From IMG/VR virus record IMGVR_UViG_3300019360_000042, positions 1 to 23,219 of that record: a stretch of 23,219 nucleotides of DNA; one strand, written 5' to 3'. The translations under genes were made by a program, and so were the position numbers. The notes below the pieces were generated by a model. It did no database searches and had not been told where the DNA came from. It saw nothing but the letters and a program-made list of their open reading frames with translations. This document shows, piece after piece, positions 9,660 through 23,219 of the stretch. The DNA comes from a virus. The number at the start of each line of letters is the position of its first letter. Position 1 is the first letter of the stretch.

Positions 9660-10541
9660 ATGGGCATTACGAACTTAAGTGCATTGAATGCGAATCTCGG
9701 CCCGGCGTTCCGCGGGAATGACTGGGTCAAGTATCGCTACACGGAGTTCCAAGGACCGGTACTCGGCGAAGCGTTTGCTGACGTATCTGCTACTCCAGAC
9801 TTGGTGGAGCACTCCACGGTTGCGCAGGTTGGCGCCGGGGACATTAACACCATCTACGTGGGTGGATACCCCTGGCAATACTTCGTTAACGGGGCTTTCG
9901 CTGGTCAGGCTCCTCAGGTGATTCACAACGCGAACGGCTTGGCGCTTTCTATTGATGCCGCCAATGACGACGGCATCGAGTTTGCGCCGATTCTAGCAGA
10001 GACTATCGCTCTAGTCGCAGGGGTGCACGACGGTAGTATCGCGGCGCCCGCACGGACGGTCAACGGGTTCACGGCCCGGACGGATGACATGTTTCTTCGT
10101 GTCCGCATGAGGGTTGAAGACGTGTCGGCTCTCGATTTCCTCTCGCTAGGCTTCCGTCGAGCAAACCAGCTTCCGCAGACCACGCTTGGCGCGTACACTG
10201 ACTACTTCGTTATGAACCTCAACAACGGAACGTCGGAAACGCGCAGCAGGCTGAACAGCGGAACCGAGTCAGTTACGGTCAGTACTGAGACCGTGGCGGA
10301 CGCGGGGACGGTGATCTACGAAGTCCGGGTTAACAGAGCGGGAGTGGCTCAGGGGCTGGTTAACGGCGCGCTTGTCGCCGCGGGCCAGTCGGGGTTCACC
10401 TTCGATAGCGCCGACCTGCTTATTCCGTTTTTCCTAGCTCAGGCGGACGGCACCGACGGCGGAGCGGTAGAGCTTTCGTTGTGGGAACAGGGCACGTTTG
10501 ACCAGCGACAGTTGGTTTCGCTGGGTGACCTGGTTAACTAG
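9660..10541 (+). CDS. Virion protein co-expressed with capsid, lectin-like beta domain
   Basis: A 293-residue protein with GGGAGG (9648-9653) upstream, 12 bases after the capsid stop. The N-terminal third has a tail- or head-binding look (GPVLGEAFADVSATPDLVEH). The rest is beta-rich, with strands such as MFLRVRMRVEDVSALDFLSLGFRR and VIYEVRVNRAGVAQGLVNGALV. The second stretch, with NGALV following a repeated hydrophobic pattern, recalls the NG-x-x-V turn of concanavalin A-like (LamG-type) beta sandwiches, as in the next gene. It lies between the capsid gene and a strong terminator (10548-10578), so it should be made at high level like the capsid protein. A head-surface fibre, a second decoration protein or an abundant tail component would fit; I cannot choose between these. 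Confidence 0.7.
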   Translation: MGITNLSALNANLGPAFRGNDWVKYRYTEFQGPVLGEAFADVSATPDLVEHSTVAQVGAGDINTIYVGGYPWQYFVNGAFAGQAPQVIHNANGLALSIDAANDDGIEFAPILAETIALVAGVHDGSIAAPARTVNGFTARTDDMFLRVRMRVEDVSALDFLSLGFRRANQLPQTTLGAYTDYFVMNLNNGTSETRSRLNSGTESVTVSTETVADAGTVIYEVRVNRAGVAQGLVNGALVAAGQSGFTFDSADLLIPFFLAQADGTDGGAVELSLWEQGTFDQRQLVSLGDLVN

Positions 10542-12264: not shown

Positions 12265-14460
12265 ATGCCGTACTTCGACTTCTCTCCGGTCACTACTGGG
12301 TTGCATTCGGAGCGGCCGTCTTATCAAGTGCAGTGGACCAGGCTGCAAAACTTTCAGGCCCGCCGAGGCCGCCTGATTACCAGAGCTGGGTCCGCGGAGA
12401 TGGAAGCCCAGCCGCTGTTCACAGTGGAAGGGGCAATCCCTCTAGTTATCACTGAGGTCTTGAACCCCCGCTCTGGGATCACAGCTGGACGTACCTTGCA
12501 ACTCCACCAGATTCGTCGTCCTAGTGCAGAAGGGTTTTGCACAACCGGATTTGTTCCAGTCGGAGACGCCGATCTGGCCCTGGTGCTGGATGACGATCCG
12601 CCCGATGATGGCGCCACACTAGCACGCATCGCTGTTACAGCTGGAGGGTTTGGAGAGTTCTACCTTGACCGTACTGACTTCGATGCCGACTTCCTGGCGA
12701 TCGATCAGATTATCGTCCGCACGCGGGTGCGGTTCACAAATAGTAGCTACGTCGGCCCCGCGACGGTGCAGATGGGACTGGGGGTTTGTGACTCCTCCTC
12801 AGGGCAAGTAACTAATCGTATTCAAGTGGTGCCCTCGCAGGTCGGCTGGACCGAGCTGACTGCCGTGTTGCCCAGTCGGGCAGCTATTTCTCTTGGCGGA
12901 GCGCGCCCGGACATCGACTGGCTCGGGAGCACTAGCCCCTGGACTATCGCGGTTTTGAATACGGGTGTTATTGCAAACAGACCGCAGTTCTTCTTCCGGG
13001 TTGAGTTCCCTGCAGGTGTAACCGGCTTGGGAAATTTCGAGGTTGATTACCTCGTGATGGGGCTCTACGGCTGGAAAACGACCACTGTGGCAGATGACGG
13101 CTTGATTGGAATCGATCGAATATACGTGACCTCGCACAGCTTTGAAAGGCTGGTTGATGAGAGTTCCGATTCCGGCTTTGAAAACGTCCGAGGGGCGGTC
13201 GCCCTGCCCACTGGAGCAGAGTTCGACGCGACCCAGTTGTACGGACAGCTTTATCTCGCAAACGGGGCTGATCAGTTGTATCGCTATCCCACTGCCGGTG
13301 GCATCTTTGAGCAGTTTGCAGGGAAGCCGTTCGGGAAGACCGTGTTAGGGTTCGACGGGCGGGTGCACCTCGGCTGGGTGACCGACGGGGGCACAGACAC
13401 GCCCGAGCGGGTGAGGTTCTCAATAAAAGGCGATGGCTCAGATTTTACCGGCATAGGAAGCGGGTTTTACGATGCGCTCGCAGCCCCGGGCGGCGTAATA
13501 AAGCTGGAGGCCCTGACCGAAGATACCTATGCGCTGTACAAGCAGCAAAGCGTGTGGCTGGTCCGACGCACAGGTGATGACTCTGCGCCGTACATCCCCG
13601 ACGTGATTGACCCACAAACCGGCCTGTTAGCCCTGCGGACGGTAAAGACGGCTATCACGCCCCAAGGTACACCGATCCAGCTTTTCTTGGGAAGCAACCC
13701 AATCGACGGCATCTCGGTTTTTCGATTCGATGGCAGTACTGTGGTAGACGTGGGCCAGGGGCTTACTCAGTTCCTACGGGATAACGCTAACCAGGAGCAG
13801 ATTCAATACTCCTTCGCCGCAATCGATCCTGATTCTGGAACTTACTGGCTGTTCGTCCCCGAGGGCAGTCGGCTCTTTCCAGAAAAGGCATGGATCATGG
13901 ACATCCGTACCGGCGAGTGGTTCGAGGGCACGTTCCCGCAGGCGTACAGCGCTGCAGGAAGCTGGCAGCTCAAGACGGTGACAACTCCCCGACCAAGGGG
14001 GAAGGCAACGCTCATAGGAGGCCGGGTAAGCGACGGGCGGCCCCGAACGTTTGTCTATAGCCAGGCGGAAGACAGCGGGCAGGCTGACCACGGAGGCGGC
14101 AATCTAGCGCAATTCACCAACGCGCCCCACGTCCTGGAGACGGGGGACCTGCGGCTCACTGAGCCCCAGCTGCAGACGATTCCTTACAGCATTCATCTGC
14201 AATTTGTAGACCGGGGACAGTTCAACGTGGCAGTGGATGTCAGCATTGATGGTGGGCTGACGTTCAACACATCAATCAGCCAAACGTTTGGCGGGGGGGC
14301 CTCGGGATCGTTGCAGTACGCAAAGCTGGACGGGACTGTTATCCAGGGCCGGCGCATCCGGTTTCGTTTAACCTTCATCGCAGTCGGCTCGGCCGCTCTT
14401 CCGATTATAGAAATCCACGAGGGGTGGATCTACTTCGAAACCGGTGGGGATGATGCCTGA
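12265..14460 (+). CDS. Tail nozzle (T7 gp12 / P22 gp10-like) protein
   Basis: A 731-residue protein. An upstream ATG (12205) exists, but the ATG at 12265 has GGAGAG 8 bases before it and begins MPYFDFSPVTTG. This start, with a Tyr/Phe-rich stretch then ERPSYQV...RLQNFQARRGRLITRAGS, is like the N-terminus of the short-tail nozzle proteins, where the element reads roughly P-x-x-x-G-V, then N-x-x-x-x-x-G-x-x-x-R-x-G. Long beta-rich regions follow, with repeated aromatic and Gly/Asp turns. Around residues 430-560 the protein reads like propeller blades: LYKQQSVWLVRRTG, IPDVIDPQTGLLALRT, IQYSFAAIDPDSGTYWLFVPEG, WIMDIRTGEWFEG. It probably closes the tail channel before infection. The exact homologue is not certain. 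Its end overlaps the next gene by 8 bases. Confidence 0.8.
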   Translation: MPYFDFSPVTTGLHSERPSYQVQWTRLQNFQARRGRLITRAGSAEMEAQPLFTVEGAIPLVITEVLNPRSGITAGRTLQLHQIRRPSAEGFCTTGFVPVGDADLALVLDDDPPDDGATLARIAVTAGGFGEFYLDRTDFDADFLAIDQIIVRTRVRFTNSSYVGPATVQMGLGVCDSSSGQVTNRIQVVPSQVGWTELTAVLPSRAAISLGGARPDIDWLGSTSPWTIAVLNTGVIANRPQFFFRVEFPAGVTGLGNFEVDYLVMGLYGWKTTTVADDGLIGIDRIYVTSHSFERLVDESSDSGFENVRGAVALPTGAEFDATQLYGQLYLANGADQLYRYPTAGGIFEQFAGKPFGKTVLGFDGRVHLGWVTDGGTDTPERVRFSIKGDGSDFTGIGSGFYDALAAPGGVIKLEALTEDTYALYKQQSVWLVRRTGDDSAPYIPDVIDPQTGLLALRTVKTAITPQGTPIQLFLGSNPIDGISVFRFDGSTVVDVGQGLTQFLRDNANQEQIQYSFAAIDPDSGTYWLFVPEGSRLFPEKAWIMDIRTGEWFEGTFPQAYSAAGSWQLKTVTTPRPRGKATLIGGRVSDGRPRTFVYSQAEDSGQADHGGGNLAQFTNAPHVLETGDLRLTEPQLQTIPYSIHLQFVDRGQFNVAVDVSIDGGLTFNTSISQTFGGGASGSLQYAKLDGTVIQGRRIRFRLTFIAVGSAALPIIEIHEGWIYFETGGDDA

Positions 14461-15160
14461 GGTAAAGCAGCCGTTTTCGTTCAAGCCATTCGTAACGACG
14501 GTTCTGAACAAGCTGTTCAACGCCACAGGGTTTCCGGTTCCGCAGCTAGCGGAAAATGATGGCACGGAACGCACACAGCTCATCCTTCATGATGGTACCG
14601 TACAACGTCGGTGGAAAAGCGAAACGACCGGCGAGGCGGATGTCGTTCCGTATGGAAGAGAGTCCGGAGGCGGCCTGCGTGCTTTCCAGACAGAGAACAC
14701 GGCGGCGACTCTTGGCCGGCTCATGGCGCTCGCTCAGCTTGCCGGGACGGATTCGACCTCGACCGAGGCGCGGCTTCGGATCGATTCGAGCCGCATCCTG
14801 GAGACGCATCCGTACAACCCGGTCGCTACACAGATCTCGGCTACGATGCCGGCTGGGGGCGCAACGTACTACACGGTCCCGGCGGGGCGACGCGCGCGAG
14901 TAGAAATCGATATCGTGAACAACTCTGCGTTGGCCTCGACGGTGAACCTGTTCGTGCGTGTGACCGGCGAAGCGGCGGGAGCGGCAAACCGGATCCTTAC
15001 GAACGTCCCGATCGCAGCTAATGTGGTGGGCATCCGGCTGGGGCCGTTTCACCTGGCTGCTGGCGGGATAATCAGTGGAGACAGCACGCTGACGGATTCG
15101 TCCACCATTTTTCTAACCATCGAAGAGGACTCAAGCGGCTGGACGCCGGGGACGGTCTAA
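14453..15160 (+). CDS. Tail appendage protein with jelly-roll-like C-terminal domain
   Basis: A 235-residue protein. Candidate starts are GTG 14444, ATG 14450 and ATG 14453; I chose the last because GGTGGGG (14443-14449) can act as its SD, but the choice is weak. All overlap the nozzle gene. The N-terminal 90 residues contain a beta hairpin-like segment (RTQLILHDGTVQRRWKSE) and a Gly-rich loop. The C-terminal 110 residues read as a small beta sandwich: ATYYTVPAGRRARVEIDIVNN, then TVNLFVRVTG, ANVVGIRLGPFHLAAGG and a final STIFLTIEED. The phrase YTVPAG followed by a long V/I/V strand is common in phage appendage and neck proteins with a jelly-roll fold. No enzymatic motif is seen. It belongs to the appendage module and likely links the tail to the fibres. 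Confidence 0.75.
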   Translation: MPEVKQPFSFKPFVTTVLNKLFNATGFPVPQLAENDGTERTQLILHDGTVQRRWKSETTGEADVVPYGRESGGGLRAFQTENTAATLGRLMALAQLAGTDSTSTEARLRIDSSRILETHPYNPVATQISATMPAGGATYYTVPAGRRARVEIDIVNNSALASTVNLFVRVTGEAAGAANRILTNVPIAANVVGIRLGPFHLAAGGIISGDSTLTDSSTIFLTIEEDSSGWTPGTV

Positions 15161-17621: not shown

Positions 17622-18392
17622 ATGGCCAAAATCCAGGATATGTCCGTGGCCTTGCTGCAACTGCTACGCGCAGCATGGGCCAAGAACGGACGACACATGG
17701 CGGATGCCGACAGGCCGCCCGAAGTGCTCGAATTTCTCCTCTTCCAGGACGGCGGGGACTCGCAGTGGTATGAAATACCTGGACACCTTGCTTGGATCTA
17801 TGTGCGAAACGTGGTCCCCGGGCTTTCTGCCGATTTCCACGCTCTCAACCTTGAGGGAGAACAGGCGTTCAACGTCGAGAAGGTCCGCGGGGTCGTCCGG
17901 GAGATCATGCGGGAGTACGATCTCCGGAGGCTTACCATGGTCCTCCCCGCCCCGGTTACCAACGTTGCTGGAGCCGCGGCTCGGCTCGGGTTTCAAATCG
18001 AAGGCCGGCTGGTGGACGCGTGCATATATGACGGGCAGTTTGCGGACGGGCTCGTCATGGGGTTCTATCGGGGCAATGTTGAGAAGGTGGCTCTCTCGCC
18101 AGCGGCTCAAGCAGCACCAAAACGCCGTAGACGCCGGCGGTCACGACGGAGGAAGCAGGTAAATGCCCAAGGACTTCAGCAAGCGGGTTCAAGCCCTGCA
18201 GATGCTCGCGCATCAGATGGAAATGGAGTTCCGCAAGAGGTTCCCCCGCGGGTCGAGGTTCCAGCCGAAACGGGTTTCCGGCGCAACGATCCGAGGGCAA
18301 AAGGGGGGAAGGATCCCCGTCAAAGAGATTTCCGAGGCCGTGCCCGGCGGGACACTTTTCCGCGCTCAGGGACAGAAAGGTCAGTTCATTGA
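17622..18392 (+). CDS. GNAT-like acetyltransferase with Arg-rich and overlapping C-terminus
   Basis: A 256-residue protein with GAGGAAA before the ATG. Residues 1-155 resemble a GNAT fold. There is a helical start (LLQLLRAAWAKNGRHMAD), an acidic strand (EVLEFLLFQDGG), then LSADFHALNLEGEQAFN and a late block (TMVLPAPVTNVAGAAARLGFQIEGRLVDACIYDG), the last like the C-terminal part of GNAT proteins, where N-x-x-x-x-x-x-x-x-x-GF-x-x-EG-x-x-x-x is usual. The R/Q-x-x-G-x-G/A acetyl-CoA loop is not obvious, so activity is uncertain. Residues about 164-178 are almost all Arg and Lys (KRRRRRRSRRRKQ). The last 77 codons overlap the next gene in another frame and look random, so that part may be functionless. 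Position matches T7 gene 13 (internal virion protein). Role inferred: an internal or ejected protein. Confidence 0.68.
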   Translation: MAKIQDMSVALLQLLRAAWAKNGRHMADADRPPEVLEFLLFQDGGDSQWYEIPGHLAWIYVRNVVPGLSADFHALNLEGEQAFNVEKVRGVVREIMREYDLRRLTMVLPAPVTNVAGAAARLGFQIEGRLVDACIYDGQFADGLVMGFYRGNVEKVALSPAAQAAPKRRRRRRSRRRKQVNAQGLQQAGSSPADARASDGNGVPQEVPPRVEVPAETGFRRNDPRAKGGKDPRQRDFRGRARRDTFPRSGTERSVH

Positions 18393-19185
18393 GGCGTTGC
18401 TTAAGCCCACGGGAGAGGTTCACGTCGGCCGGGTCGAGGTGCCTACGGCTCTGCGAGGGCAAGGCTTGGCGAAGGACCTGTACCTCCGGTTGGCGGATTT
18501 CGCCCGCAAGTCGGGGCTACCGAGGCTGGAGTTCCAGGCTGGGAAGAACATCTTGAACCTGCCCGCGGTTACCAAACTACGGCAGGCTGCGATAGAAAGG
18601 TTTGGCGGGTTAGGCGCAACCGCAGGCGCGCTGGGGAATGTCCAGCTTCCGTTCGAGGTTGCTGGGCAGGTTGGGCGGGTTGTTCAAGCGCTCACGGGAA
18701 AGACCGGAAGGGCGCCCACGGCGGAGGAGATCCAGCTTGTGACCGGGGCGGTACCGAGTAAAATTTCGCTGCAACACGGCGGCCGTGTGCCCGACTTCTC
18801 GCCCATCGTTGACGCGGCTTCCGCACGGCATGGCGTGCCCGCCGAGATCATCAATGCGATCATTCAAACGGAATCCAGCGGGCGCCCGCGGGCTGTGAAT
18901 CCCGAGCTCGCGTCCGGGGGCGGGAAAAACCCATCCACCGGCTTGATGCAGCTTCGGCGGACCACGGCCCAGGCCCTGGGCTACGACCCGAAGAACCTGT
19001 TTGATCCGGAAGTCAACATCAACGCGGGCACGGAGTATCTGGCAAAGCAGTTTCGTCGGTACGGCGACTGGCTCTCCGCGATTGCGGCATACAACGCCGG
19101 GTCCGCTCGGCCCGTGAAGGGTGGCAAGGGCGAGTTCCGAAACCAGGCATACGTCAACAAGGTCTTGAAGGCGATTCAGAGGTAA
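18163..19185 (+). CDS. GNAT-like domain fused to SLT lytic transglycosylase
   Basis: A 340-residue protein with GGAGGAAG (18148-18155) before the ATG; the frame has a stop directly before it (18160-18162), so no earlier start is possible. The C-terminal 130 residues are a lytic transglycosylase (SLT) domain: candidate catalytic Glu E237 in QTESSG, STGLMQL at 258-264, INAGTEYLAKQFRRYGD at 286-302 and AAYNAG at 308-313. Such domains cut peptidoglycan so that DNA can pass the cell wall, and T7 gp16 carries one. The N-terminal region has VGRVEVPTALRGQGLAKDLY (residues 88-107), a GNAT-type acetyl-CoA loop R-G-x-G-x-A, followed by a LEFQAGKNI strand, suggesting an acetyltransferase fold. A linker at 180-210 carries LQHGGRV. 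It is virion-borne by inference from its neighbours. Confidence 0.86.
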   Translation: MPKDFSKRVQALQMLAHQMEMEFRKRFPRGSRFQPKRVSGATIRGQKGGRIPVKEISEAVPGGTLFRAQGQKGQFIEALLKPTGEVHVGRVEVPTALRGQGLAKDLYLRLADFARKSGLPRLEFQAGKNILNLPAVTKLRQAAIERFGGLGATAGALGNVQLPFEVAGQVGRVVQALTGKTGRAPTAEEIQLVTGAVPSKISLQHGGRVPDFSPIVDAASARHGVPAEIINAIIQTESSGRPRAVNPELASGGGKNPSTGLMQLRRTTAQALGYDPKNLFDPEVNINAGTEYLAKQFRRYGDWLSAIAAYNAGSARPVKGGKGEFRNQAYVNKVLKAIQR

Positions 19186-19186
19186 C

Positions 19187-21784
19187 ATGGCAGCGCAGAA
19201 TAGCATTCGGCTTCCCGGGCAGCTCATCCGACGGCTCCGCCTGGGCGGGTTGATTCAGCAGTACCAGCAGGGTGGGATAGTTTTTGCCCAACCCGGAGGG
19301 CGCATACTTCCCGGCGGCGTGCCCCCGGGGTGGCAGCCTGGACAGCCTGGGGGATCTTTTGGTAGCGATCAAACCCCTCCGCAGGCGGGCGGCGGGCTTG
19401 TCGGTGGAATCCAGCAGCAGCTCGGGGCGTACAACCAGCAGTTCGTCCAGCCGGTTCAAGCTGCCGCGGGGCAGGTCGGAGGGTTCAACCCCTTCGGCGG
19501 ACCGCTCGGGCAGCAAGCGCAGGCCACGGCCGGGGAGCTACTCCGAACGGGCGCCCCGACCGACGTGTCGGGCTTGACGCAGGTGGCTCAACAGCGCGCT
19601 GGAAGGACGTTCGAGGATTTCCTCTCGGGTGCACGTGAACGGTTTGGCGCGCTGAACCTGGAATCCTCCAGCGCGTTGGAGCAGGCGAAAATGCGAGAGG
19701 CGGCCCGGCTGGCACAGGGTGTGGGCGAGCAGGGCATCATCTCAGGCGTGGGCGCAGCGGAGTCGGCTACCGGCCGGCGGCTCGCGGCTTTGAGTCCGTT
19801 CCAAGAATCTCGGCAGCAGCAGTTGGGTGCCCAGACGGCCGCGGGCGGGCTGTACGGCCAGGCGGCAGGATTGGGATTCAATCCGATTCAAGGCGGTCTT
19901 CAACTCTCGGGGCAGCTGTTCCCGGCCCAAGCGGCACAGGTGAACCAGCCGTTCATCGGCGGGAATCAGCCCCCGCCTACACAATTCTCGCCCATGCTAC
20001 AGTTTGGAGCATCGCAGTCTGTCTCCAGGCCTGCCCTATCGAGTCCGGCTCCAGCCCCGGCCGCGAGCCAGAGGCAGTACGCTTACAACCCGAACCAGTA
20101 CAACCCGTTCGCTGGATCGCTCGTTAGTGGGCGTACTCTTGGCTTCCAAGACGGTGGCCGGGTGGACGGCCGGGTGGACTTTGGGGACTACTTGAGCAAT
20201 CTCCTGTTCGGCCAGCAGTTTACGCGCCCGCAGGCGCAAGCACAGGCTCCCGGGCAATTCCTGGCGCCCCGCATGGCGGCAGCAGCTGCTCCAACGGAAA
20301 GGCCGTTGGAAAGGGGCTTCGAGCGAGAAATGCGAGAGGCGCAGTTAAAATCCCTTCGCTTGCAAAACGCTCGGGAACAGAAACTGATGAACTTGATCCG
20401 CGGGATCTCGGGCAACGTCGGCACAGGGGCGGAGCAGTTCTTCGCTCAGACTCGCCAGCAAAACGCGTTGCGCGACATGATCGCGGCCCTGACAGGGAAA
20501 GAGCGAGCAGGAACAATTACGCAAGCGCCCGCCCCGACCTACAACATCTACCAGCAGCCGTATCAGCAGCAGCAGCCGGCCCAGAAGACCGCAGATGGCG
20601 GCACCATTCAAGGCCCGTCCTACCCGCCCGACACCGTTCCCGTACTGGCCCAAGGCGGCGAGGTTATCCTGCCGCTGGAGACCGTTGCGCGTATTCAGAA
20701 GTCGAAGAGCAAGGACCCGCTCATTCAGGAGATTAAGCGGATTGCCCGCCGGACGCCGGATCAGCAGGGTGCGCAGCTCGGGGGTAAGCTCCAGGACTTG
20801 GAGCAACGGTTCGGTGGCACCGCGGGGCCGGTTCCGGGCATTCCAGGTGCGACGTTTGATCTCAAGGGAGGAAAGGGCGGGCGCCCTCTGTTCACACTCA
20901 CCGGCACGCCCGAGCCGCTCGAAGCGATAGAAGAGCGTCGGTTGCAAGACGCAATCACTTACGCTCGGGCGAATGTGAATCGCCTCAAGACAGCGTATGC
21001 CCTCGGAACCAAGGGAACGGGCGAGCAGACCCAAACGTTGATCGCCTCAGCGCAGCAAGAGCTTGACAAGGCGCAGCAGGATCTGGTAACGTCAAGAACG
21101 CAAGCTCTAGCGAAGGAACAAGCAGCGGTGCAGAAGGAACAGGCAGCGACGCAGCAGAAGGTGGCCGAAGCTCAGAAGGCATCGGAAGAGGCTCGGAAGT
21201 CCTTGTACGAAGCCCAGGCCAAGGCGGCAGCGGATGAGGCGAAGCTCGCGCTCGACCAATCGAAGAGCGACGCCGGCGCGCTCAAGGACATCATTATTAA
21301 TACCGCACGGCAGGGAGGCTCGCCTTTTATGGCCGCGATGGCGTACTACCAGGTCACTGGAAAGGAGCCGCCTCCGGGACTGGTCCAGGCTGCCCAGCAA
21401 GAACAACAGCAGATGGCCGCGGCTTCGAACCCCGCGCCGGTGACTGAAGCGATCTTGCCCGAAGTAGTAAGGCGACAGAACGAGATGGTGGCCGCACAAC
21501 AGCAGCAGAATCTACTGGTCGGTGGCCATCAGCCCGCGCGCGAACCTTTTGTGACCGGACCAGTTTCCCGTCCGGGAAGCCCAGAGGTCGGAGTTCCAGG
21601 GCTGGAAGTTCCGCCAACGTCAGACATCATCCACGCCATTCTGCAGAACATTGCAGCGGGGGACACATCTCCGGAGAACGCCTTGCTCTTGCAGTATTAT
21701 GCTTCACCAGAGGCTTTACAAACGTTGCCGCCTGAAGAGCGTACTCAGATTGTTGAGATCATGAAACAACTGGGTCTATTCTGA
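19187..21784 (+). CDS. Large internal virion / ejection protein with coiled coil
   Basis: An 865-residue protein starting one base after the previous stop, with AGAGGT just upstream. The N-terminus has a basic amphipathic stretch (IRLPGQLIRRLRLGGLIQQYQQGG), followed by Gln/Gly/Pro-rich low-complexity segments. A helical region at about 130-210 follows. Near residues 466-498, DGGTIQGPSYPPDTVPVLAQ followed by GGEVILPLE is a signature shared by tape-measure and internal proteins (DxVPxxLxxGExVxP). Residues about 584-700 are a strongly charged coiled coil with Ala, Gln and Lys, then helical and Pro-rich segments to the end. No catalytic motif is seen. The layout is that of internal core proteins (the T7 gp14-16 class) that are ejected with the DNA and form a channel. 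Sequence is repeat-rich, so homology is hard to judge. Confidence 0.75.
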   Translation: MAAQNSIRLPGQLIRRLRLGGLIQQYQQGGIVFAQPGGRILPGGVPPGWQPGQPGGSFGSDQTPPQAGGGLVGGIQQQLGAYNQQFVQPVQAAAGQVGGFNPFGGPLGQQAQATAGELLRTGAPTDVSGLTQVAQQRAGRTFEDFLSGARERFGALNLESSSALEQAKMREAARLAQGVGEQGIISGVGAAESATGRRLAALSPFQESRQQQLGAQTAAGGLYGQAAGLGFNPIQGGLQLSGQLFPAQAAQVNQPFIGGNQPPPTQFSPMLQFGASQSVSRPALSSPAPAPAASQRQYAYNPNQYNPFAGSLVSGRTLGFQDGGRVDGRVDFGDYLSNLLFGQQFTRPQAQAQAPGQFLAPRMAAAAAPTERPLERGFEREMREAQLKSLRLQNAREQKLMNLIRGISGNVGTGAEQFFAQTRQQNALRDMIAALTGKERAGTITQAPAPTYNIYQQPYQQQQPAQKTADGGTIQGPSYPPDTVPVLAQGGEVILPLETVARIQKSKSKDPLIQEIKRIARRTPDQQGAQLGGKLQDLEQRFGGTAGPVPGIPGATFDLKGGKGGRPLFTLTGTPEPLEAIEERRLQDAITYARANVNRLKTAYALGTKGTGEQTQTLIASAQQELDKAQQDLVTSRTQALAKEQAAVQKEQAATQQKVAEAQKASEEARKSLYEAQAKAAADEAKLALDQSKSDAGALKDIIINTARQGGSPFMAAMAYYQVTGKEPPPGLVQAAQQEQQQMAAASNPAPVTEAILPEVVRRQNEMVAAQQQQNLLVGGHQPAREPFVTGPVSRPGSPEVGVPGLEVPPTSDIIHAILQNIAAGDTSPENALLLQYYASPEALQTLPPEERTQIVEIMKQLGLF

Positions 21785-22917
21785 TGCCGAATCTAACCCC
21801 CGAAGAGTTCCGCCAGCTGTTCCAGCAGTTGTATCAACAGAAGGTGAGAAGCTACCAACAGGGGTTCGCACCGCAGTTCCAGACCGGTCTTCGAGAAACC
21901 ATCGAGGCGATTACACCAGGCCCCGGGGCCAATCTCCCGAACATCCCTGCTGAGACCCTCCCGGGCAAGATCGGTCGGTTTGCTGGGCAGGCTCTCCCCG
22001 AGATCGCGGCAGCGGCTGGAGTTGAAGCCCTGACCGGCGGGCTGGGCGCGCCGTTTGCTGCCCGGATCCTCGCGGGAGGAGCGACCGCAGGTTTGATCGG
22101 CGGATTACGTTCAGGCGAGCCATTGTCCGGAGCGGCCCTGGGCGCGGGTACCGCGGGGGCGCTGGGTCTACTCGGACGACTCGGGCGGCGGGCGATCCCA
22201 GCAGCGGCAGAGGAAGCCCAAGCGGCTTTGACGGCCGGTCAAGCACCCTTGGCCCTCCCGGCGGAGTTCGCCCAAGAAGCCGCGGCCAGGCCGTTTGTTT
22301 CCCCCGGACGGGTTGGCCCGCAACTTGCTCTGCCTAGCGGACTTCCGGGTGAGAGCCTGCGACTGCAAGATGTCTTCGCCCGGGCCGCTAAAGGGGACAC
22401 CGCGGCTTTCAGGGAAGCGGCCGCAGCGCTGGGGAGCACCCCCGAGTCCATAGCGGCCCAGATCGTCCGGCTGAACCGTGGGGCGGCGGGCAAGATGCTG
22501 CCGAAGCGGCTGCTGGGGGACAACTACCGCCAGGCCCTACAACGGCTGGAAGCGGAAGGAGCAGCGCCTCCACCTCCGGCTGTACCCCAACCCCCCACAT
22601 CGGTCTCCGAGGCCGTGAGCCTCATGGAGACCCTCAAGAAGAAGCTCATTTCCGGAGAAGCGGGCAAAGAGGTATCCGAGGGGGAGGCAATCCGCATTGC
22701 AACCCGGGCGAAGCTGAATCGAGAGTTGATTGCCGCGGCGCAGAGGGATTTGCCTCCAGAGGTTGCTGAGCGAGCGGCGAAGGTGCTACCGACGGCATTT
22801 GATGGTGCTGACGATGCGACCCTGGCGATCCTGGATGAGACGATTCAGGACCTGAACCCGCAGAACATCGCGCGACTGGCCGCACATCTGAGTTCGAAGA
22901 ACTTCTGCAAGAGGTAA
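21784..22917 (+). CDS. Gly/Ala-rich internal virion protein
   Basis: A 377-residue protein whose ATG overlaps the previous stop (TGATG). Residues 5-25 form a Gln-rich helix. Residues about 60-135 are rich in Gly and Ala with hydrophobic stretches (ALPEIAAAAGVEALTGGLG, AARILAGGATAGLIGGLRSG, ALGLLGRLGRR), which recall membrane-active segments of internal or ejected phage proteins. Then follow a helical region to about 255, a Pro-rich hinge (APPPPAVPQPP, 261-271) and a further helical segment (ETLKKKLISGEAGKEVSEGEAIRIATRAK). The end, up to FCKR, is followed by TAA, GAC, then the ATG of the next gene in the same frame, so the two could once have been one protein. The role is inferred from position; no enzyme motif is seen. 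Confidence 0.7.
   Translation: MPNLTPEEFRQLFQQLYQQKVRSYQQGFAPQFQTGLRETIEAITPGPGANLPNIPAETLPGKIGRFAGQALPEIAAAAGVEALTGGLGAPFAARILAGGATAGLIGGLRSGEPLSGAALGAGTAGALGLLGRLGRRAIPAAAEEAQAALTAGQAPLALPAEFAQEAAARPFVSPGRVGPQLALPSGLPGESLRLQDVFARAAKGDTAAFREAAAALGSTPESIAAQIVRLNRGAAGKMLPKRLLGDNYRQALQRLEAEGAAPPPPAVPQPPTSVSEAVSLMETLKKKLISGEAGKEVSEGEAIRIATRAKLNRELIAAAQRDLPPEVAERAAKVLPTAFDGADDATLAILDETIQDLNPQNIARLAAHLSSKNFCKR
22908..22914 (+). promoter_or_regulatory. SD within the end of the preceding gene
   Basis: AAGAGGT is at 22908-22914, 6 bases before the ATG at 22921. It lies in the last codons of the gene at 21784. It supports separate initiation of the downstream gene rather than read-through of the intervening TAA (22915-22917). 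Confidence 0.6.
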
Positions 22918-22920
22918 GAC

Positions 22921-23219
22921 ATGGCATTCTGCATCAAGCCGGGCGATATTCCTGATCTATTACGCGAGACCCGCGCGTCCTCCATGCTGTTCGGTCTGGC
23001 GCAAGTGAAAAACGGCTTGTTCAACATCGCGTCATCGGCGTTCCGCGTTCCGGTCACGGCAGTAGCTGCGGGGTTAGAGCAGACCGCCGGACGTGCGGCC
23101 GCGGCAATAAAAGGCCAGCCTTTCCAACAAACGCAGTACACGTCCGAAGCGATGGCGCACATGTACGGGTTCTTTCATGCCTTACCCCTTGCGCTGAAGA
23201 CATACGGCCGGCAGGCAAA
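22921..23219 (+). CDS. Start of a large internal / polyvalent-type protein (3' end missing)
   Basis: The open frame runs off the right edge, so only the first 99 codons are seen. It begins MAFCIKPGDIPDLLRETRAS and reads SSMLFGLAQVKNGLFNIASS near residues 20-40. The theme of a helix ending in R-A-S-x-ML, followed by a short loop and V-x-N-x-x-x-N-I, recurs in phage internal or polyvalent-type proteins. There it reads like SML-S-G-P-x-T-x-x-x-N-I. Residues 44-62 are Ala-rich and possibly membrane-active. The frame is the same as that of the preceding gene, separated by one stop codon. Function is not certain. It probably continues the ejection module outside the window. Confidence 0.72.
   Translation, partial: MAFCIKPGDIPDLLRETRASSMLFGLAQVKNGLFNIASSAFRVPVTAVAAGLEQTAGRAAAAIKGQPFQQTQYTSEAMAHMYGFFHALPLALKTYGRQA

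Follow-up and report, generated by a model that had tools for sequence, protein, structure and literature searches.

In phage SU10, the proteins gp20-24 exit the virion together with the genome, and gp20 has been described as having transglycosylase activity (PMC9509320). The internal virion transglycosylases of the T7 gp16-like kind are proteins of more than 1000 aa, with an N-terminal SLT domain encoded in the last part of the structural operon. Genes for GNAT acetyltransferases are also found at loci of this kind. SIO1 pc40 is a GNAT located beside the internal virion proteins in cobaviruses and has been compared with T7 gp13, a protein with a suggested role in morphogenesis (PMC6775973), whilst ORF39 of vB_PaeM-G11 is a GNAT encoded just ahead of the gp14-gp15-gp16 genes (PMC10142737). 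In addition, two GNAT families and lysozyme domains have been described in the polyvalent proteins that are injected by phages (PMC5512222). GNAT genes adjoin ejection genes both in T7-like phages and outside that group.

The protein described here, P0001, joins an SLT domain of a known kind to a GNAT-like domain of a known kind in one compact chain, a pairing that is uncommon among the sequences compared. In common with SU10 gp20 (Kuravirus), its SLT domain is found among ejection-type genes, in a genome with an SU10-type portal and adaptor, and, like that of the gp16-like enzymes, it is encoded in the last part of the structural operon. Unlike the gp16-like enzymes, however, P0001 is only 340 aa long and its SLT domain is C-terminal, with the GNAT-like domain in front. 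The GNATs of SIO1 pc40, vB_PaeM-G11 ORF39 and two viral sequences identified here (L068 and L069) likewise adjoin ejection genes, but are separate genes without an SLT fusion; in the window, the slot in question is already taken by the gene upstream of P0001 (17622-18392). Both kinds of domain are present in polyvalent proteins and in a 2764-aa phage protein described below, although P0001 confines itself to two domains, whereas further domains, such as a zincin peptidase, LPDs or ART, are typical of polyvalent proteins.

A single gene encodes both domains

The window analysed here is the whole 23,219-nt (23.2 kb) stretch of DNA from the virus record IMGVR_UViG_3300019360_000042. P0001 is encoded by one uninterrupted open frame at 18163..19185 on the plus strand. 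A GGAGG ribosome-binding site (18148..18152, same strand) is located 10 nt upstream of its ATG, a TAA (18160-18162) stands immediately before this codon, and at ~18120-18160 the codon-position GC leaves the upstream gene's frame and takes up that of P0001. These three signals show that the start is correct and that both domains belong to one gene. Codon-position GC is also normal for a coding gene across the whole of P0001.

The encoded chain divides into three parts, all on the plus strand. The first is a GNAT-like domain (residues ~48-150; 18304..18612), recognized by Pfam (PF00583/PF14542), an AlphaFold model and Foldseek, which contains the acetyl-CoA loop motif R98-G-Q-G-L-A103 (18454..18471). 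This is followed by a linker without a convincing family match (residues 151-205; 18613..18777) and by an SLT lytic transglycosylase domain (residues 206-340; 18778..19182), in which the alignment of SLT proteins predicts E237 (codon 18871-18873) as the catalytic glutamate. The first-pass annotation had proposed a GNAT-type loop and an SLT domain with E237 in the same chain, and the single 340-aa frame, its motifs and the Pfam matches bear this out. As with the SLT catalytic residues, the GNAT homology and the position of the gene in its module, the fusion is read here from sequence.

The transglycosylase domain

By sequence, residues 206-340 are an ordinary family-1 SLT lytic transglycosylase domain. 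PF01464 matches residues 216-316 with an E-value of 4.4e-25, and the motifs of the family are all present, namely the catalytic Glu in an ES motif (E237 in ESSG), GLMQ at residues 260-263 and AYNAG at residues 309-313. Across 61 aligned viral SLT proteins, comprising 60 fetched by SLT similarity and P0001 itself, E237, S238 and GLMQ are invariant and the three motifs as a whole are invariant or nearly so. E237 also pairs, free of gaps, with residue 478 of Slt70, the catalytic Glu of that enzyme. The profile match, the motifs and the Slt70 alignment together confirm what had been called at first pass, an SLT domain at residues 210-340 with E237, for which a profile search had been advised.

Families of endolysins in PHROG also match the SLT part of P0001. 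ORF99 of the Kuravirus relative EK010 matches this part and lies among structural genes; unlike P0001, it has its SLT domain at the very start and gives no match to GNAT. The SLT part of P0001 most likely opens peptidoglycan at entry.

The GNAT-like domain

Evidence for the identity of the N-terminal part is individually weak but concordant between sequence and fold, and for this reason a GNAT-fold domain is the best reading of it, and very probably the right one. Pfam searches with residues 1-180 alone return PF14542 with an E-value of 8e-5 and PF00583 with one of 2.5e-4, the latter scoring 21.7 bits where the cut-off is 20.7. With full-length P0001 the PF00583 score is 20.2 bits, 0.5 bit below the cut-off, and in a six-frame search of the whole record with this family P0001 is the sole hit, above the cut-off (E 2.1e-6). 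The PF00583 alignment spans just motif A and its surroundings (profile positions 55-99 of 116). PF14542 (Acetyltransf_CG), the family of short GNATs that includes At1g77540 and E. coli YjdJ, is the best Pfam match of the domain, and small GNATs of this kind also appear in the fold lists; yet, with 23.1 of 30 bits, P0001 falls below the cut-off of this family and it has no Cys. The R-G-x-G-x-A acetyl-CoA loop that had been noted within residues 88-107 is present and intact as R98-G-Q-G-L-A103, which conforms to the GNAT consensus Q/R-x-x-G-x-G/A. E92, on the strand before this loop, could serve as a base. Whether the domain is active is uncertain, since Cys is absent from the entire protein and Y107 is the lone Tyr within residues 1-200; the Tyr that usually acts as general acid in GNATs is not obvious in the sequence.

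The closest matches to the domain in 398 bacterial genomes are weak, and about 8 of the 17 were judged by eye to be GNATs whose loop is similar; a hydrolase present in four copies and a number of unlikely frames were set aside as chance. Viral contigs yielded no homologue of the N-terminal domain, and the three hits there to a degenerate pattern of the GNAT loop did not look like GNATs when read. A 180-aa N-terminal query returned no homologue from phage records at E-values up to 1. An 89-aa core query, run at E-values up to 10, gave five hits at E 3-5 only, all five of them annotated as acetyl- or acyltransferase genes. Genome contigs contained no full-length homologue of P0001, just an SLT match in Thiofilum.

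Structure prediction, which had been recommended at first pass together with a fold search, gives models in keeping with this assignment. AlphaFold predicts residues 1-180, as a single sequence, with low confidence (pLDDT 43.7), and residues 48-150, without an alignment, with a pLDDT of 71.6. Both models have the strand-loop-helix-strand-helix order of GNATs. In the 48-150 model (E7-13, E16-22, E28-33, E38-45, H49-70, E76-79 and H86-100), the domain appears to be shortened past the second helix. Foldseek searches of the PDB list acetyltransferases or proteins of the same fold for the 1-180 model (best E 0.009) and mostly GNATs for the 48-150 model (best E 0.02), whilst the top match among the viral models of BFVD is a GNAT (E 0.0019); no single E-value from the PDB and BFVD searches is below 0.001. 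In VIA-align comparisons GNATs reach a Z-score of 7.6 and metallo-beta-lactamases tie with them at ~7.5. GNAT similarity within residues 40-150, the absence of which would have counted against the original call, was therefore found by both Pfam and fold searches, and the profile search for GNAT families that had also been advised matched PF00583 and PF14542.

Weak BFVD matches to the GNAT model include A0A6F8ZK16 and A0A6J5KM98; the two are, respectively, an internal virion protein of 1490 aa from Xylella phage Cota and a phage protein of 343 aa. Another GNAT fusion of the virion might be represented by either of them.

Genomic context

The window encodes a terminase, an SU10-type portal (PF23899), a capsid protein and an SU10-type adaptor, a gene content that identifies the virus, on sequence grounds, as a short-tailed phage of Kuravirus-like architecture, or SU10-like podovirus. 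Relatives were sought via the portal, the MCP and the downstream gene, and also via a 751-aa protein, which returned none. The only relative found to cover the P0001 region is G001, a genome of 44 kb; the sequences L005 and L012-L014 end before it.

Directly upstream of P0001 is a second GNAT-like gene (17622..18392, plus strand), identified by profile search and codon-position GC. A profile built from it and its G001 homologue matches the acetyltransferase 2ge3 (E 5e-4), and eight of the nine hits listed are acetyltransferases, whilst no recognizable acetyl-CoA loop of the RGxGxA type was seen in it. No profile similarity was detected between this gene and the GNAT-like part of P0001 that would indicate a shared origin. 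It has no Pfam match to the T7 gp13 family (PF11090) and its hhalign comparison with gp13 is not significant, so that it agrees with T7 gp13 by gene position only. The last 230 nt of this gene (18163-18392) overlap P0001 in a different frame, and its homology to G001 stops near residue 155, beyond which lies an Arg-rich tail. Given this end of homology and the switch of frame in codon-position GC, the tail is possibly spurious, or the sequence may contain an indel.

Downstream, on the plus strand, are genes for a putative ejection protein of 865 aa (19187..21784), which aligns with the product of the syntenic G001 gene over 671 columns at 33% identity, and a second of 377 aa (21784..22917), assigned by position only, the slot of which is occupied in G001 by a 293-aa gene without a significant sequence match. 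These are followed by the first part of another putative ejection gene (22921..23217, plus strand), cut at the end of the window, which resembles a 626-aa protein of G001 (E 1e-6). Gene order in G001 is the homologue of 17622-18392, a 363-aa gene, the homologue of 19187-21784, the 293-aa gene and the homologue of 22921. This shared order, together with the SU10-type portal and adaptor, supports the earlier suggestion of an ejection-module setting and makes it plausible that the P0001 gene lies inside such a module. The 363-aa gene of G001 in the P0001 slot has no Pfam match, and a search of G001 for PF01464 and PF00583 gave no hit. As the syntenic gene has neither, both the SLT and the GNAT domains are variable in this slot.

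Occurrence of the pairing

In the 61 viral SLT proteins, the flanks of which had been limited to ~350 aa ahead of the SLT start and 300 aa counted from it, a GNAT family was found only once, in P0001. PF00583 was then sought in 65 virus records, some of which are close relatives of one another, so that counts among them are not independent. One of these (G429) encodes a 2764-aa ORF with an SLT domain at aa 351 and a GNAT at aa 1319 of the same chain, which trimming had hidden; this ORF is located at 31228-39519 on the minus strand of IMGVR_UViG_3300029258_001781 (L132). Two others (G440 and G441) have a solo GNAT-like gene ~2.3 kb upstream of the SLT gene, before the other genes of the block, a placement like that of gp13 in T7, the match in G440 being under the cut-off. 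A solo GNAT-like gene in the T7 gp13 slot, ahead of a series of ejection-type genes of which the last encodes an SLT protein, is found at 288-743 of L069 and at 171-743 of L068. In three further records of the 65 the GNAT hits fall in separate short frames.

A GNAT and an SLT domain in one chain is uncommon, as had been suspected at first pass, but not unique, and a GNAT adjoining the ejection block recurs. When the fusion was looked for in related phages, as had been advised, the syntenic gene of G001 contained neither domain, and the 2764-aa protein with both came from a separate search. The XAJ24 and Ponderosa proteins, checked as possible relatives, have an SLT domain but no GNAT match. 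No description of this compact GNAT-SLT fusion was found among open papers.

Possible roles of the GNAT-like domain

The explanation that we favour, and put forward tentatively, is that P0001 is an ejection protein of an SU10-like podovirus whose GNAT domain acts in the producing cell or as a docking module. P0001 would be packed in the phage head and leave with the first DNA, whereupon the C-terminal SLT domain would cut peptidoglycan and thereby give the ejection channel a way across the wall, the function proposed for SU10 gp20. Only gene order points to a location in the virion, which we infer from it; the timing, and what the GNAT domain does, are likewise proposals. Acyl-CoA donors, acetyl-CoA among them, are made in the cytoplasm (PMC12148441), and the domain would consequently work either before ejection, in the producing cell, or after reaching the host cytoplasm; for the same reason, periplasmic acetylation of a peptidoglycan-related molecule is the least likely of the functions proposed. 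The GNAT-fold domain would most likely act while still in the producing cell, which contains acetyl-CoA, in assembly, docking or the acetylation of a virion partner. Alternatively, it may be a non-catalytic docking module that loads the enzyme into the procapsid or holds ejection partners, a task resembling that suggested for T7 gp13 and for the GNATs that T7-like phages encode in the gp13 slot. By analogy, this docking option appears the better fit to the T7-like precedent, and an assembly or docking role for the GNAT-like half is offered as a first guess.

The GNAT-like gene directly upstream counts in favour of this explanation, and the gp13-slot precedent and the lack of the usual Tyr would favour action in the producing cell. 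Counted against it are the fully intact R98-GQGLA103 loop, which a purely structural domain would not seem to need, and the slot of G001 without either domain. The likeness to T7 gp13 is, moreover, positional only. The searches found no homologue of the N-terminal domain that would show it to be under selection, which is also counted against. A compact natural fusion nevertheless hints that the GNAT cooperates with the ejection transglycosylase, in assembly or entry, and P0001 is a small protein suited to acetyl-CoA binding and deletion tests; otherwise, it is one more domain pairing in the known mosaic of phage ejection proteins.

A rather unlikely alternative is that P0001 is an effector of the polyvalent type, in which an active GNAT accompanies the DNA into the host cytoplasm and there modifies a host protein, whilst the SLT domain opens the wall. 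The intact acetyl-CoA loop, the occurrence of GNAT and lysozyme domains in injected polyvalent proteins (PMC5512222) and the 2764-aa protein with both domains speak for it, and the loop and this precedent mean that action in the host cytoplasm may occur. However, at 340 aa P0001 is short for such a protein, and the notable families in a Pfam scan were confined to GNAT and SLT/lysozyme-like ones; neither a peptidase nor any other domain of polyvalent proteins was found. The SLT domain must also act in the periplasm, with no evident cleavage site to separate it, and the general-acid Tyr is not obvious. The full proposition, that one small virion protein cuts the wall and an active acetyltransferase domain then modifies a host protein at the start of infection, is improbable.

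It is similarly improbable that the GNAT is a functionless N-terminal extension, captured by recombination beside the gene in the gp13 slot. The apparent shortening after the second helix, the missing typical catalytic residues and the different protein that fills the slot in G001 speak for this, but the acetyl-CoA loop is intact and codon-position GC is of the coding type throughout.

Free SLT enzymes are the endolysins of some phages. P0001 could on this basis, and on that of its PHROG matches, be an endolysin with a regulatory or targeting GNAT-like part, rather than a virion protein. This is very unlikely, as the gene is flanked by virion-type genes in an order common to G001, has no lysis-gene neighbour among the genes scanned, and has in EK010 an SLT counterpart that is also placed among structural genes. 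Finally, a chance motif in an unrelated alpha/beta domain, for which the lack of a fold match at E <0.001, the tie with metallo-beta-lactamases and the partial coverage of the Pfam profile might be cited, is highly improbable in view of two GNAT Pfam models at E ~1e-4, one above its cut-off, Foldseek lists from two models made up mostly of GNATs and the ~8 clear GNATs among the nearest bacterial matches.

Gene order elsewhere in the window

Two further differences between the window and its relatives were observed. The gene at window positions 9660-10541 has two tandem copies in G001 (13819-14703 and 14762-15655 of L006), each with 47-48% identity. A small gene located between terminase and portal (1554-1916) has its counterpart downstream of the capsid gene in relatives (15712-16035 of L006 and 8662-9024 of L012), and is a moved gene.
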